Source: Haladaptatus sp. QDMS2
GTDB taxonomy: Archaea > Halobacteriota > Halobacteria > Halobacteriales > Halococcaceae
Reading direction: 5' to 3'
Assembly (NCBI RefSeq): GCF_029338295.1
Contig: NZ_CP119791.1
Location: 2,294,001 to 2,358,000, forward strand
DNA length: 64,000 bases
The notes under the pieces were generated by a model that was given only the letters and a program-made list of their open reading frames with translations, was not told where the DNA came from and made no database searches. Both the position numbers and the translations under genes were made by a program. Positions 13,329-48,837 of this stretch are shown here, piece by piece (positions within the stretch are counted from its first letter, which is position 1; each line of letters begins with the position of its first letter).

Positions 13329-13397
13329 ATGGGCCCTGCAGGATTTGAACCAGAGCAAGACTCACTGCGTTCGTCTTGCAGGCTTCAATCCTGCAGT
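13329..13397 (-). repeat. tRNA 3' echo A2, long hairpin
   Basis: Bases 13329-13352 copy the T-arm, acceptor 3' strand and trailer base of the tRNA at 13544-13618. They sit in a hairpin: CTGCAGGAT (13336-13344) pairs with ATCCTGCAG (13388-13396), and the inner stem GCAAGAC (13355-13361) pairs with GTCTTGC (13373-13379). Confidence 0.75.
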
Positions 13398-13439
13398 CCG
13401 TCAGCGATTTGCTCCTCACCTTCGTTCGTCGCAAAATTG

Positions 13440-13500
13440 ATGGGCCCTGCAGGATTTGAACCTCAGTCGCTCGCTGCGCTCGCTCCTTGCTTCAAATCCT
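13440..13500 (-). repeat. tRNA 3' echo A1, hairpin
   Basis: Bases 13440-13462 repeat the 3' end of the tRNA at 13544-13618 exactly. AGGATTTGAA (13451-13460) pairs with TTCAAATCCT (13491-13500) across a 30-nt loop rich in CGCTCG. Confidence 0.78.
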
Positions 13501-13543: not shown

Positions 13544-13618
13544 TGGGCCCTGCAGGATTTGAACCAGCGCTCACCCGGTTATGAGCCGGGCGCTTTAACC
13601 AGACTAAGCTAAGGGCCC
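13544..13618 (-). tRNA. tRNA with CAU anticodon (Ile2 or Met)
   Basis: A complete 75-nt cloverleaf: acceptor GGGCCCT/AGGGCCC with discriminator A, D-arm TTAGTCTGGTTAAA, anticodon stem CCGGC/ACCGG-type around loop CTCATAA, and T-loop GGTTCAAATCC. CAU is read by Met-tRNAs and by Ile2-tRNA with modified C34. The lack of an intron and the GGGCCC acceptor point to Ile2 rather than the intron-bearing elongator Met-tRNA of some haloarchaea, but I cannot settle it. The T-stem has one U-U mismatch. A TATA-like TAAATACG lies about 25-35 nt upstream. Confidence 0.88.
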
Positions 13619-13715: not shown

Positions 13716-14135
13716 ATGGAACGAGGGGACTTCGTCACCGGCATCGACCACGAACTGGCAGAGAGTATCGTAAGTGCAGCCCGAACCAGTCTCGGTGACA
13801 CGCTGCGAAGCGTGGTGTACTTCACGCCCTCACAGTTCGACGTGCTGTACAGCCGCACCGACCTCTACGAGTCGGGCGCAGAGGTGCGCGACGCCAAGTC
13901 GCGACTCGTCGATTTGGAGATGATGGGATTCGCTGAAGCGCCACTCAGAACCGTTCTCACAGAAACGAGTGCCCCGTCGAGCATCGGCCCCTACGAATTC
14001 ACCGTCCGATTCCACGAAGAGGGGTTCGTCGTCCGCGTCGTCCGCGGCAACCACGGCGTACTCCTGACGACGGATGCCATGGACGTGAACGCCTTCGAAG
14101 AGACGGTCGATGCGTTCAATCGACTCCTTGAATAA
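13716..14135 (+). CDS. Conserved haloarchaeal protein (DUF7522-like)
   Basis: A 139-residue soluble protein starting MERGDFVTGIDHELAESIV. A helical N-terminus is followed by LRSVVYFTPSQFDVLYSR and a C-terminal alpha/beta part (YEFTVRFHEEGFVVRVVRGN). The pattern recalls a haloarchaeal family recorded, as far as I remember, as DUF7522, perhaps related to roadblock-like folds. No active site is visible. It lies between two tRNA loci and was probably not part of their history, since its codon use looks normal. Confidence 0.65.
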   Translation: MERGDFVTGIDHELAESIVSAARTSLGDTLRSVVYFTPSQFDVLYSRTDLYESGAEVRDAKSRLVDLEMMGFAEAPLRTVLTETSAPSSIGPYEFTVRFHEEGFVVRVVRGNHGVLLTTDAMDVNAFEETVDAFNRLLE

Positions 14136-14170
14136 CGGTACTTTCAGCTACCGGCACTGATTCGCGTCGT

Positions 14171-14232
14171 TCGGAGACGAGACTCCTCGTGAGGGGTGAT
14201 GATTGGAAGAAGCGCCGTCGCCAGGGCTCGAA
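14171..14232 (-). repeat. tRNA-Asn 3' echo B2, part of a perfect 62-bp direct repeat
   Basis: This block is identical to 14449-14510, which covers the T-arm, acceptor end, trailer and a CCTCGTGAGG element of the tRNA-Asn gene. The T-arm copy pairs with an inverted arm (GGCTCGAAT 14225-14233 with ATTCGAGCC 14260-14268). Confidence 0.85.
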
Positions 14233-14330
14233 TCCACTCGCTCACTGCGTTCGCTCGTTATTCGAGCCTGTCGAGTTTCGCTGATACCACTCTCAGAATG
14301 TGTTTGGAGCAGGAGCTCCTCACGGGTTGA

Positions 14331-14416
14331 GAGTGGAAGAAGCGCCGTCGCCAGGGCTCGAACTCAGTCGCACGAACTCTCCCTCCGGTCGAGCTGCGTG
14401 CTCCTTGCTCGACCCC
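14331..14416 (-). repeat. tRNA-Asn 3' echo B1
   Basis: Bases 14334-14362 copy the tRNA-Asn 3' end and trailer (GAAGAAGCGCCGTCGCCAGG on the plus strand). The trailer is more diverged than in B2. A weaker inverted arm TCGACCCC (14409-14416) can pair with GGG-TCGA. Confidence 0.72.
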
Positions 14417-14490
14417 TTTGTTGCGCGACGAACAATCATCGAAGTCACTCGGAGACGAGACTCCTCGTGAGGGGTGATGATTGGAAGAAG

Positions 14491-14563
14491 CGCCGTCGCC
14501 AGGGCTCGAACCTGGGACCACCTCGTTAACAGCGAGGTGCTCTACCATCTGAGCTACGACGGC
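14491..14563 (-). tRNA. tRNA-Asn (GTT)
   Basis: A 73-nt cloverleaf with acceptor GCCGTCG/CGACGGC, D-arm TAGCTCAGATGGTAGAGC, anticodon loop CTGTTAA (anticodon GTT), variable loop and T-arm CCAGGTTCGAGCCCTGG, discriminator G. No intron. CCA is not encoded; the CCA-adding enzyme gene starts 100 nt away on the other strand. Confidence 0.96.
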
Positions 14564-14662
14564 CCATTACTGCACTTTCTGGTAGAGGGAGTTGCATGAT
14601 ATGACTTTCGTTTTTTCCCTCGCATCGACACGCTTTCACTACCGCGCGGGCAAGCAGTTTCA

Positions 14663-16024
14663 ATGACTGAGCGAGACGAGTACGAGCGGGTCTTCGAGAG
14701 CGTCCGGGCGTGGGTCGAGCCCGGCGCTGACGAGCAAGCCCGACTCACCGAGGCGGCAGCGGCGCTCCTCGAGCGCACCGAAGAGGCCATCGCCGACCTC
14801 GGCGTCGAGGCCGACACCATCCTCGTCGGGAGCACCGCCCGCGGGACGTGGATCAGCGGGGACCGCGACATCGACGTGTTCGTGCGGTTTCCAGAATCAC
14901 TTGCGCGCGAGGAACTCGAACGGTTTGGCCTGCAAATTGGCGCTACCGTCCTCCCCGACGGGCAAAAAGAGTACGCAGAACATCCCTACACCAAAGGCGA
15001 CTACGACGGCTTCAGCGTGGACCTCGTGCCCTGCTATGCCGTGCCAACGGCCGCCGATATCAAGTCCGCAGTAGACCGGACGCCGTTTCACACCGAGTAT
15101 CTAGACGACCACCTCACCGACGACCTCGCCGGAGAAGTGCGTCTGGCGAAACAGTTCCTGAAGGGAATCGGGAGCTACGGGTCAGACCTCCGGACGGAGG
15201 GATTTTCCGGCTATCTCACCGAACTCCTGATTCTCGAGTACGGGAGCCTTCTCGCGTTTCTCGAAGCCGCGGCCGATTGGAAGCCGCCAGTAAAGTTCGA
15301 CTCGGAGAATCACGGCCAGCGCAGTTTCACCGACCCACTCGTCGTCATCGACCCGACCGACCCACGTCGGAACGTCGCCGCGGCCGTCTCGCCCGCGAAC
15401 GTCGCTCGATTGCAACACTACGCCCGGGCGTTCCTCGCCGCGCCGAGTGAAACCATGTTCATCCCCGCCACTCCGGACCCCCTCAACACAGACCAGGTCC
15501 GGACGGCAATCGACCGCCGGGGAACGATTCCCGTCGCGGTCCGTTTCGAGACGCCGGACATCGTCGAGGACCAACTCTACCCGCAGTTGCGCAAGTCCAT
15601 CGAAGGCATGGCGAGCGAACTCGACCGTCGGGGCTTCGACGTGCTCCGAACGGCCACGTTTGCGGCGGAGACGGCGGTGCTGTTCGCCGAGCTCGAAGTG
15701 GCGAGTCGTCCAGCAATAGAGCGCCACGAGGGACCGCCGGTCCACGTCCGCAAGCACGCGACGGGCTTCTACGAGAAATACGCGGACGACCCTGACGCCT
15801 TCGGGCCGTTCATCGACGGTGACCGCTACGTCGTCGAACGCGACCGTGAATTCACGACGGCGCGGGCGTTCCTCGAAAGCGAGGCGCTCTTCGACGTGGC
15901 GCTCGGGGCGACGATTCAACGGCAGTTACAGAAGGAGTACGAGGTGCTGGCTGGGTCCGACGTCGCCGACCTCGCAGGTGAGTTCGGAGCGCAACTGGCG
16001 CATTACTTCTCGCCGAAGCCGTGA
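14663..16024 (+). CDS. cca: CCA tRNA nucleotidyltransferase, archaeal class I
   Basis: A 453-residue enzyme that adds or repairs the 3' CCA of tRNA using CTP and ATP. The nucleotidyltransferase head has GSTARGTW (from about 56) and the metal-binding aspartates in DRDIDVF (Asp69, Asp71), with a third acidic residue in FSVDLVPCY. The remaining central and tail domains bind the tRNA acceptor. The length is normal for archaea. The gene overlaps the HDAC gene tail-to-tail by 22 nt. Confidence 0.96.
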   Translation: MTERDEYERVFESVRAWVEPGADEQARLTEAAAALLERTEEAIADLGVEADTILVGSTARGTWISGDRDIDVFVRFPESLAREELERFGLQIGATVLPDGQKEYAEHPYTKGDYDGFSVDLVPCYAVPTAADIKSAVDRTPFHTEYLDDHLTDDLAGEVRLAKQFLKGIGSYGSDLRTEGFSGYLTELLILEYGSLLAFLEAAADWKPPVKFDSENHGQRSFTDPLVVIDPTDPRRNVAAAVSPANVARLQHYARAFLAAPSETMFIPATPDPLNTDQVRTAIDRRGTIPVAVRFETPDIVEDQLYPQLRKSIEGMASELDRRGFDVLRTATFAAETAVLFAELEVASRPAIERHEGPPVHVRKHATGFYEKYADDPDAFGPFIDGDRYVVERDREFTTARAFLESEALFDVALGATIQRQLQKEYEVLAGSDVADLAGEFGAQLAHYFSPKP

Positions 16025-19705: not shown

Positions 19706-19778
19706 GTCCTGATAGGGTAGTGGACTATCCTCCTGGCTTGCGGAGCCAGGGACCGGAGTTCAAATCTCCGTCAGGACG
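19706..19778 (+). tRNA. tRNA-Arg (GCG)
   Basis: A 73-nt cloverleaf: acceptor GTCCTGA/TCAGGAC, discriminator G, D-arm TAGGGTAGTGGACTA, anticodon stem CTGGC/GCCAG with loop TTGCGGA (anticodon GCG), and T-arm CGGAGTTCAAATCTCCG. No intron. A TATA-like CCTTTAACC lies at about 19674-19682. Confidence 0.96.
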
Positions 19779-19833
19779 TTTCATTTCATTCAACGACCTG
19801 ACTTGCTCCACGCTCGCGTTCGCTCGCGTGGAA

Positions 19834-19965
19834 CTCCGTGAGAACTGCGTTCTCACGTGCCTCACACTCGTTTCACTCGTGTGAGACTCCGTCAGGACGC
19901 TCATTTCATTCGCGCCCTGACTTACTCCACGCTCGCGTCCGCTCGCGTGGAACTCCGCCAGGACA
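19834..19965 (+). repeat. tRNA-Arg 3' echoes (three copies)
   Basis: Copies of the tRNA-Arg acceptor end CTCCGTCAGGACG occur at 19887-19899 (exact), 19953-19965 (two changes) and 19834-19845 (degenerate). The segments between them are also repeated: CATTTCATTC, the (C)CCTGACTT word and the hairpin CCACGCTCGCG...CGCGTGGAACTCCG appear twice. Confidence 0.78.
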
Positions 19966-28139: not shown

Positions 28140-28213
28140 GGGCTCGTGGTCTAGTTGGTTATGACGTGGCCTTTACAAGGCCGAGGTCGGTGGTTCGAAT
28201 CCGCCCGAGCCCA
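28140..28213 (+). tRNA. tRNA-Val (TAC)
   Basis: A 74-nt cloverleaf: acceptor GGGCTCG/CGAGCCC with discriminator A, D-arm TGGTCTAGTTGGTTATGAC, anticodon loop TTTACAA (anticodon TAC) on a GGCC/GGCC stem, and T-arm GGTGGTTCGAATCCGCC. No intron. Confidence 0.95.
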
Positions 28214-28274
28214 TTTCTGACGACACAACACGACGAGCGAAGCGAGGAGTCTGTGTCGTCTGAATGGGTTATAA

Positions 28275-28354
28275 GGATTCGAATGAGGAGCGGTAGCGAC
28301 CGGGGTTCGAATCCGCCCGAGTGAAGCCCCCGGGTCCGAAGCCGTCCGGGTGAA
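28275..28354 (+). repeat. tRNA-Val 3' echoes D1 and D2
   Basis: D1 (28304-28321) is an exact 18-nt copy of the tRNA-Val T-arm and acceptor start, GGTTCGAATCCGCCCGAG. Its TTCGAATCC pairs with GGATTCGAA at 28275-28283 across a 22-nt loop. D2 (28333-28354) is a second copy matching the extended D1 sequence at 18 of 22 positions. Confidence 0.8.
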
Positions 28355-30343: not shown

Positions 30344-30417
30344 GCCGCCTTAGCTCAGCCTGGGAGAGCACTCGACTGAAGATCGGGCTGTCCCCGGTTC
30401 AAATCCGGGAGGCGGCA
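30344..30417 (+). tRNA. tRNA-Phe (GAA)
   Basis: A 74-nt cloverleaf: acceptor GCCGCCT/AGGCGGC with discriminator A, D-arm TAGCTCAGCCTGGGAGAGCA, anticodon loop CTGAAGA (anticodon GAA) on stem CTCGA/TCGGG, and T-arm CCCGGTTCAAATCCGGG. No intron. Confidence 0.96.
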
Positions 30418-30478
30418 TTTTCCAACTCTCGAACGCACGAGCGAAGCGAGCGCGTCGAGAGGTGTAACATCAATCCGA

Positions 30479-30652
30479 CCGGATTTGAATCAGGGAGCGA
30501 CAGCGACCGTTGTTCACAATCCGGGAGGCGGCATGTCCCTGCGAACAACGTGAGCAGTGAAATTGTTCACGAGCGATTTGAACCCGACGAGTCGCAACCG
30601 TGAACGAAGCGAGCGGTCCGTCTCGACTCGGTTCACAATCCGGGAGACGACA
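30479..30652 (+). repeat. tRNA-Phe 3' echoes E1 and E2
   Basis: E1 (30512-30533) contains a 16-nt exact copy of the tRNA-Phe end, AATCCGGGAGGCGGCA, preceded by GTTCAC in place of GTTCA. An inverted arm CCGGATTTGAA lies at 30479-30489. E2 (30630-30652) repeats the block with changes (AATCCGGGAGACGACA) and has its own inverted arm (GATTTGAACC near 30574-30583). Both echoes share the extra C in TTCACAATCC, so one likely derives from the other. Confidence 0.8.
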
Positions 30653-48311: not shown

Positions 48312-48357
48312 GGATTTGAACACCAGTCGCAGGCAAGCTGCTCCTTTGTTCAAATCC
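48312..48357 (-). repeat. tRNA-Asp 3' echo F
   Basis: GGATTTGAAC (48312-48321) pairs perfectly with GTTCAAATCC (48348-48357) over a 26-nt loop. It copies the T-loop region of tRNA-Asp (GGTTCAAATCC) with a following GCCG, and lies on the 3' side of the gene at 48435-48507. Confidence 0.75.
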
Positions 48358-48434
48358 CTCTGTGGGTGTTACACCAGAATCAGTCGTGCTCGGCGACGAG
48401 ACGCCTCGCTGGACAAATTGGTTCTGTAGAAAAC

Positions 48435-48507
48435 GCCCGAGCCGGGATTTGAACCCGGGTCACGACCGTGACAGGGTCGTATGATAGGCCACTACACCAC
48501 CCGGGCG
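48435..48507 (-). tRNA. tRNA-Asp (GTC), copy 1
   Basis: A 73-nt cloverleaf: acceptor GCCCGGG/CTCGGGC, discriminator G, D-arm TGGTGTAGTGGCCTATCA, anticodon stem CGACC/GGTCG-type with loop CTGTCAC (anticodon GTC), and T-arm CCGGGTTCAAATCCCGG. Copy 2 at 48765 differs by a few bases in the anticodon stem. A TATA-like CCTTAAGG lies about 33-40 nt upstream of the 5' end on the minus strand. Confidence 0.96.
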
Positions 48508-48640: not shown

Positions 48641-48688
48641 GGATTTGAACGACTCTCGCTCACGGTGTTCGCTCGAACGTTCAAATCC
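48641..48688 (-). repeat. tRNA-Asp 3' echo G
   Basis: GGATTTGAACG (48641-48651) pairs perfectly with CGTTCAAATCC (48678-48688), 11 pairs over a 26-nt loop. It lies on the 3' side of tRNA-Asp copy 2. The loop length equals that of echo F. Confidence 0.78.
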
Positions 48689-48764
48689 CTCTATAGTTGC
48701 GTTACAACTCACACGATTCCGAGCACACGCTACGCGGTGCTCGTCAGTTAGTTCGTTGAAAAAG

Positions 48765-48837
48765 CGCCCGAGCCGGGATTTGAACCCGGGTCACAACCGT
48801 GACAGGGTTGTATGATAGGCCACTACACCACCCGGGC
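48765..48837 (-). tRNA. tRNA-Asp (GTC), copy 2
   Basis: The second tRNA-Asp gene, same anticodon and acceptor, with one base-pair change in the anticodon stem (ACAACC-type against ACGACC-type). The flanks are related to those of copy 1: the CGGGTGACGCAACT immediately upstream and the palindromic box GTCTTAAGAC (48869-48878) correspond to positions at copy 1. So about 330 bp, covering promoter, gene and echo, has been duplicated. Confidence 0.96.

Follow-up and report, generated by a model that had tools for sequence, protein, structure and literature searches.

The window analyzed here is the whole 64,000-nucleotide stretch of the Haladaptatus sp. QDMS2 genome (3.88 Mb; NZ_CP119791.1, positions 2,294,001 to 2,358,000). 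It contains a tRNA-Asn gene (GTT) on the minus strand, whose downstream flank is occupied by repeated copies of the last third of the gene. On one side lies a gene encoding the CCA-adding enzyme (tRNA nucleotidyltransferase; 14663-16024, plus strand), and the other neighboring gene encodes a DUF7522 protein. In the following, we call T-half the 3′ half of a tRNA, from the T-loop to the acceptor end. The features of the locus are as follows:

14490-14563 (minus): tRNA-Asn (GTT), the anchor of the array, intronless here and introned in the two congeners
14449-14510 (minus): proximal copy of the 62-bp perfect repeat (T-half A plus the start of trailer X)
14491-14510 (minus): T-half A, the 3′ half of the functional tRNA-Asn (TTCGAGCCC...GGCG)
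14433-14483 (minus): trailer hairpin X (CAATCATC...GATGATTG), whose proximal part belongs to the 62-bp perfect repeat
14363-14416 (minus): second hairpin of unit 1 (GGGGTCGAGCAAGGAGCACG...CGTGCGACTGAG), directly before T-half B
14343-14362 (minus): T-half B, an exact 20-nt copy of the tRNA-Asn 3′ half
14288-14335 (minus): trailer hairpin Y (CACTCTCA...TGAGAGTG), shared with the tRNA-Asn trailer of both congeners, so probably the older trailer
14225-14268 (minus): second hairpin of unit 2, i.e., inverted T-arm GGCTCGAA, GAGCGAAC GCA GTGAGCGAG, T-arm TTCGAGCC, shared with one congener (G002)
14213-14232 (minus): T-half C, an exact 20-nt copy of the tRNA-Asn 3′ half
14171-14232 (minus): distal copy of the 62-bp perfect repeat (T-half C plus a truncated trailer X)

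The earlier note had described a perfect 62-bp repeat at this place, and this observation is confirmed. Indeed, 14171-14232 equals 14449-14510 at every base, the exact match ends at those coordinates on both sides, and the start-to-start distance is 278 bp. An exact repeat of this length cannot be chance. The third, diverged copy that had been noticed between the two lies at 14296-14362 and is 66% identical over 67 nt, but its last 20 nt (14343-14362) are identical to those of the other two. The CCTCGTGAGG dyad is found at 14185-14194 and 14463-14472. On the contrary, the "terminator-like" label finds no support, since a scan using the bacterial-type definition (a GC hairpin followed by a T run) found no terminator-like site in 14100-14700. 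The copies are separated by 130 and 148 bp with no gene-sized content, and no integrase lies beside the array. Only the 3′ strand of the tRNA is copied and no tRNA match was found at the copies, so that these are not tRNA-like elements with both strands of the acceptor and T-arm (i.e., substrates of tRNase Z).

A hairpin family anchored on tRNA genes

This architecture is not a local feature. The stretches of the genome that were read are those around tRNAs and model matches. In the downstream flanks of the 43 ARAGORN-called tRNA genes first examined in this genome, many tRNAs show the same order: the tRNA 3′ end is followed by a short T-rich stretch, a trailer hairpin, then GGATTTGAA nnAGGGAGC (variable palindrome) GCGACCGnGG TTCAAATCC and the acceptor sequence again. 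TTCAAATCC is the tRNA's own T-arm and GGATTTGAA its inverted copy. In the window, tRNA-Met, tRNA-Val, tRNA-Phe, and both tRNA-Asp genes have it, and the flank of tRNA-Arg holds an acceptor-end copy between hairpins:

13544-13618 (minus): tRNA-Met (CAT), anchor of a second array
13451-13500 (minus): canonical second hairpin of the tRNA-Met array, AGGATTTGAAGCAAGGAGC GAGCGCAGCGA GCGACTGAGGTTCAAATCCT
13330-13460 (minus): two further exact 20-nt copies of the tRNA-Met 3′ half (13441-13460 and 13330-13349), with the second unit's hairpin at 13336-13396
28219-28314 (plus): array of tRNA-Val (28140-28213), with the trailer hairpin at 28219-28260 and the second hairpin with T-arm copy at 28275-28314
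30426-30643 (plus): array of tRNA-Phe (30344-30417), with the trailer hairpin at 30426-30461, the second hairpin at 30479-30524, and the second unit hairpin at 30574-30643
48312-48360 (minus): second hairpin of tRNA-Asp (48433-48507)
48641-48691 (minus): second hairpin of tRNA-Asp (48764-48837)
19779-19960 (plus): flank of tRNA-Arg (19706-19778), with an acceptor-end copy at 19887-19899 between hairpins of the opposite mismatch polarity (TC/TC)

We then compared this genome with two congeners, G001 and G002. Within 600 nt downstream, 18 of 44 tRNAs here, 11 of 42 in G001, and 19 of 40 in G002 have at least one copy of their own 21-nt T-half (5 or fewer mismatches), while the antisense control gives 2, 1, and 4. 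The copies are locus-specific: the 14-nt stem and acceptor part of a tRNA's own 3′ half recurs with 2 or fewer mismatches in 53 of 126 downstream flanks, against 0.1% for the halves of other tRNAs in the same flanks.

A simple pattern for the second hairpin has 12 matches in this genome, beside tRNA genes on the tRNA strand, and none for the reversed control. It occurs in 145 of 292 genomes and 53 of 77 genera of the class. A scan of named public genomes gave 120 loci with 130 matches, of which 116 lie under 400 nt downstream of a tRNA on the same strand, over 27 anticodon types; three are chance hits in bacteria, and most of the rest sit at contig ends or beside degenerate or unrecognized tRNA tails. 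A covariance model built from 32 sequences finds 69 distinct matches in the three congeneric genomes. Sixty lie within 1 kb downstream of a tRNA on its strand, three more belong to introned tRNA-Pro/Met genes, and five are copies 3.9 to 21.5 kb downstream of tRNA-Lys or tRNA-His, or the identical second copy of the His one near the contig end. Concerning this last copy, the two ends of the main contig (23800-25200 and 2945100-2946600) share an identical stretch, which is either an untrimmed terminal redundancy of about 31 kb or a true duplication, and which holds the displaced tRNA-His array. In the phylum, 50 of 53 haloarchaea have matches at E up to 0.01, against 1 of 242 other genomes, which is no more than chance would give. 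A larger second class of the second hairpin (GACGAGTCGCAG...CGACCGTCTCGGCGTAG) recurs at tRNA-Lys, -Tyr, -Ala, -Phe, and others, and is not captured by this model. A hairpin type with the opposite polarity (TTCGC-palindrome-GCTCAC, i.e., GA/GA on the antisense strand), often with GATGCGGC...GCCGCATC, is moreover inserted inside T-half copies in flanks of tRNA-Lys, -Ala, -Gly, and -Asp and at 19779-19960 of the window, as if nested.

The second hairpin has 22 pairs, 9 of which show changes on both sides, and 92.8% of cells are paired, against 86.7% in column shuffles and 29-43% when partners are slid. As the alignment is made of pattern hits, the invariant columns say nothing for or against pairing; the informative ones are the variable outer columns (4-7 with 52-55), because they follow the T-stem of each host tRNA. 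Two tandem G.A mismatches (GGGAGC / GCGACC) and one bulged G are constant, and the terminal part is variable. The sense strand folds better than the antisense in 105 of 107 loci, partly because the core motif is fixed, while this is the case for the trailer hairpin in 68 of 107. In 233 tRNA flanks, 340 hairpins were found on the sense strand: 221 have triloops, 64 are C(GNA)G, and 171 have tandem G.A, but only 3 are GNRA and 1 is TTCG. The antisense strand has 31 with tandem G.A. Non-tRNA parts of the window have 85-87 hairpins per strand, with 27-30 triloops, 0-1 C(GNA)G, and 1-2 tandem G.A. In the window, all eight occurrences of GAGC/GAAC-GN(N)A-GCGA/GTGA are downstream of tRNA genes on their strand. 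A generic scan of the window for hairpins with 2x2 mismatches gave only sparse hits. GNA and GNNA loops on G-C stems are exceptionally stable DNA mini-hairpins (PMC4686876). This favors single-stranded DNA over RNA as the working form, but only indirectly, and tandem G.A pairs are also stable in RNA. A kink-turn was considered and dropped, because the tandem G.A pairs lack the adjacent 3-nt bulge.

Unit turnover and the neighborhood of integrases

At tRNA-Asn, this genome has two extra T-half copies, G002 has one, and G001 none. The trailer next to the gene in both congeners corresponds to hairpin Y, the inner one here. In both of them the gene also has an intron of about 38 nt after the anticodon, which is absent here, an apparent intron loss at the same gene that gained array units. 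At tRNA-Leu(CAA), this genome and G002 have a unit that G001 lacks, cut exactly at the T-half. tRNA-Gln(CTG), -Phe, -Ser(CGA), and -Gln(TTG) also differ in presence between congeners. Perfect tandem copies, with periods of 99-124 bp, occur in several genomes, e.g., four copies with a 111-bp period after tRNA-Lys in another haloarchaeal genome (G040) and two identical units after tRNA-Leu in Halorientalis regularis. So units are gained and lost on a within-genus time scale, and the perfect repeat is one recent case. Copies far from the gene decay, as expected if only the first T-half is needed. The earlier note had read the identity of the copies as a recent event or gene conversion and the process as probably still active, and this interpretation is only partly supported. 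Recent copying is supported, and identical copy number and sequence in distant species, which the note had named as the refuting result, is not what we found. That the process is still active remains an inference, made without strain-level data, and the conservation of the architecture across the class had not been foreseen.

Integrative elements are found at the same junction. In G002, the tRNA-Lys array lies 3.7 kb from the gene, behind an insertion whose far end carries a tyrosine recombinase gene (positions 14241-15299 of the stretch read there, L295; 352 aa; Phage_int_SAM_1 and Phage_integrase) 42 nt from the T-half copy. The present genome has a related integrase (42% identity, with a Pfam assignment) beside a tRNA-Arg(CCG) T-half copy about 9 kb downstream of that gene. 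At tRNA-His, the array lies 21.4 kb downstream, displaced by an insertion. Relatives of the integrase occur in 268 of 292 haloarchaeal genomes; G001, however, has 18 model matches but no close relative of this integrase. Among the eight integrase-linked att sites with a T-loop core, three carry GAGC-GNA-GCGA within 30 nt upstream of the core, a motif that occurs only 17 times in 241 kb of those loci on both strands, while a general hairpin score beside the same eight sites is only moderately above background (3 of 8 at 7 bp or more) and separates only weakly. An apparent hairpin match at the end of the tRNA-His element (GGGAGCGGTAGCGA) lies in what reads by eye like an AbrB-type coding sequence and was not counted. 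Other integrases of the family use an acceptor-end core without this hairpin, and many sit next to a bare acceptor-end copy of tRNA-Arg (CCTGCAGCGCCCA), suggesting a subgroup specialized on the 3′ end of that tRNA. The left ends of the two integrated elements examined lack the typical trailer hairpin, so a unit is not simply "both ends of an element". No array unit was found in viral contigs, three scans of which gave only unrelated chance matches.

Interpretation and comparison with known systems

The repeat is part of a tRNA-anchored tandem array of cargo-free units, each made of a 3′ tRNA half, a trailer hairpin, an inverted T-arm, and a GGGAGC...GCGACC hairpin, followed by the next 3′ tRNA half. 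Our analysis establishes that each array copies its own tRNA, that canonical units begin at the T-loop, that the hairpins are strand-specific, that unit number and content change between congeners, and that integrative elements with tyrosine integrases insert at the same T-half and push the arrays kilobases away. What we infer from this, and hold only tentatively although we prefer it to the alternatives, is that the T-half plus the adjacent hairpin is an attachment-site-like module for T-loop-targeting haloarchaeal tyrosine recombinases, read at least partly as a folded single DNA strand; the enzyme, any strand-specific cleavage or strand exchange by it, and any function belong to this inference. 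Against it speak the lack of an integrase beside the tRNA-Asn array and of a close relative of this integrase in G001, the lack of array units in the viral contigs scanned, the left ends of the two integrated elements examined, the only moderately raised general hairpin score at the att sites, the integrases that use an acceptor-end core without this hairpin, and the stability of tandem G.A pairs in RNA. In this view, arrays would arise when such sites stack up by repeated insertion with loss of the interior, or by direct site-by-site exchange, and would then grow, shrink, and homogenize by recombination between T-half copies. Only the 5′-most T-half would have to stay functional, so that displaced copies would decay. 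The 62-bp perfect repeat would be the trace of the latest such event at tRNA-Asn, i.e., a 278-bp period holding units X and Y, followed by a truncated X.

Recombination and replication slippage alone could also be at work, though we consider this doubtful. An old hairpin-bearing tRNA trailer would be duplicated by slippage, template switching at palindromes, and gene conversion, without any site-specific recombinase, and quasi-palindrome correction would explain why the inverted T-arm matches each host tRNA. Indeed, trailers X and Y at tRNA-Asn and at tRNA-Leu(CAA) look like diverged paralogues, perfect tandem copies are found in several genomes, and the inverted arms track the T-stem of the host tRNA. 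However, this does not explain why the same CAGGGAGC...GCGACC core sits at 27 tRNA types in more than 50 genera, nor why canonical copies start exactly at the T-loop. A functional RNA element of the tRNA transcript (3′-end processing, termination, or quality control), duplicated under selection, appears unlikely. The sense-strand bias, the class-wide conservation, the covariation, and the better sense-strand folding speak for it. On the other hand, the loops are DNA-type triloops, presence varies between congeners at the same tRNA and several tRNAs have no unit, displaced T-half copies decay without compensation, there is no terminator-like site at tRNA-Asn, and no Rfam family other than tRNA matches in the window. 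Finally, a MITE- or REP-like hairpin mobilized by an HUH (Y1) transposase targeting tRNA T-loops, suggested by the short palindromes with conserved feet, the strand specificity, and the large numbers per genome, is very unlikely, as G001 and a further genome (G041) have 7 and 6 pattern matches but no Y1 transposase gene, the terminal inverted arms are copied from each host tRNA rather than fixed, and matches away from tRNA loci are essentially absent.

A bolder possibility, which we regard as unlikely, is that haloarchaea carry a class-wide, tRNA-anchored recombination system that works like a gene-less integron. Folded single-stranded hairpin sites, each joined to a copy of the host tRNA's 3′ half, would be inserted at and excised from the T-loop of many different tRNA genes by resident or visiting tyrosine recombinases, giving tandem arrays that may record or buffer integrations at tRNA genes. 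In any case, one odd repeat becomes a family present in almost every haloarchaeal genome examined here, and it links three topics usually treated apart, i.e., tRNA genes as integration sites, tandem repeat turnover, and single-stranded DNA hairpins as recombination substrates. Whether archaeal tyrosine recombinases can use folded single strands, and why haloarchaeal tRNA 3′ flanks evolve so fast, thereby become directly testable. Annotators should also be aware that 3′ tRNA fragments in these genomes are often array units and not remnants of large islands.

Partial tRNA copies at integration sites are well known (PMC8371274, PMC9897764, PMC3119063), whereas cargo-free tandem units with this hairpin, at dozens of tRNA types across a whole class, were not found in the literature searched, which was limited to open-access papers. 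With the partial tRNA duplications left by integrative elements, i.e., the att sites of archaeal tyrosine recombinases (PMC8371274, PMC9897764), the arrays share the downstream copy of the tRNA 3′ part, the intact gene restored at the 5′ copy, the T-arm boundary, and tyrosine integrases of a kind nearly universal in the class. They differ by the absence of cargo or integrase between copies, by units of about 100-150 bp, by tandem repetition, by the conserved hairpin and inverted T-arm, and by the many tRNA genes affected per genome. In Haloquadratum walsbyi, repeat-mediated deletions and partial tRNA copies (PMC3119063) likewise involve direct repeats from haloarchaeal tRNA 3′ ends and strain-level change, but these are two prophage-related cases with kilobases between copies, and we found no tandem hairpin arrays described there. 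REP/BIME palindromic repeats with RAYT transposases are also short intergenic palindromes, multicopy and strand-asymmetric, but the present units are restricted to tRNA 3′ flanks, their arms covary with the host tRNA, and their presence does not follow Y1 transposase. Integron attC sites (PMC2727003) are likewise imperfect palindromes with inner and outer paired boxes, a bulged base that gives strand asymmetry, a variable terminal structure of 3 to 30 or more nt, and tandem copies, and the modeled structure of the second hairpin, with its invariant bulged G, 22 pairs, and variable tip, fits this description. This is a likeness in design only: the box sequences differ, the units are tied to tRNA genes, no gene lies between the T-half copies in the loci read, and no integron integrase, attI, or cassette gene was seen.
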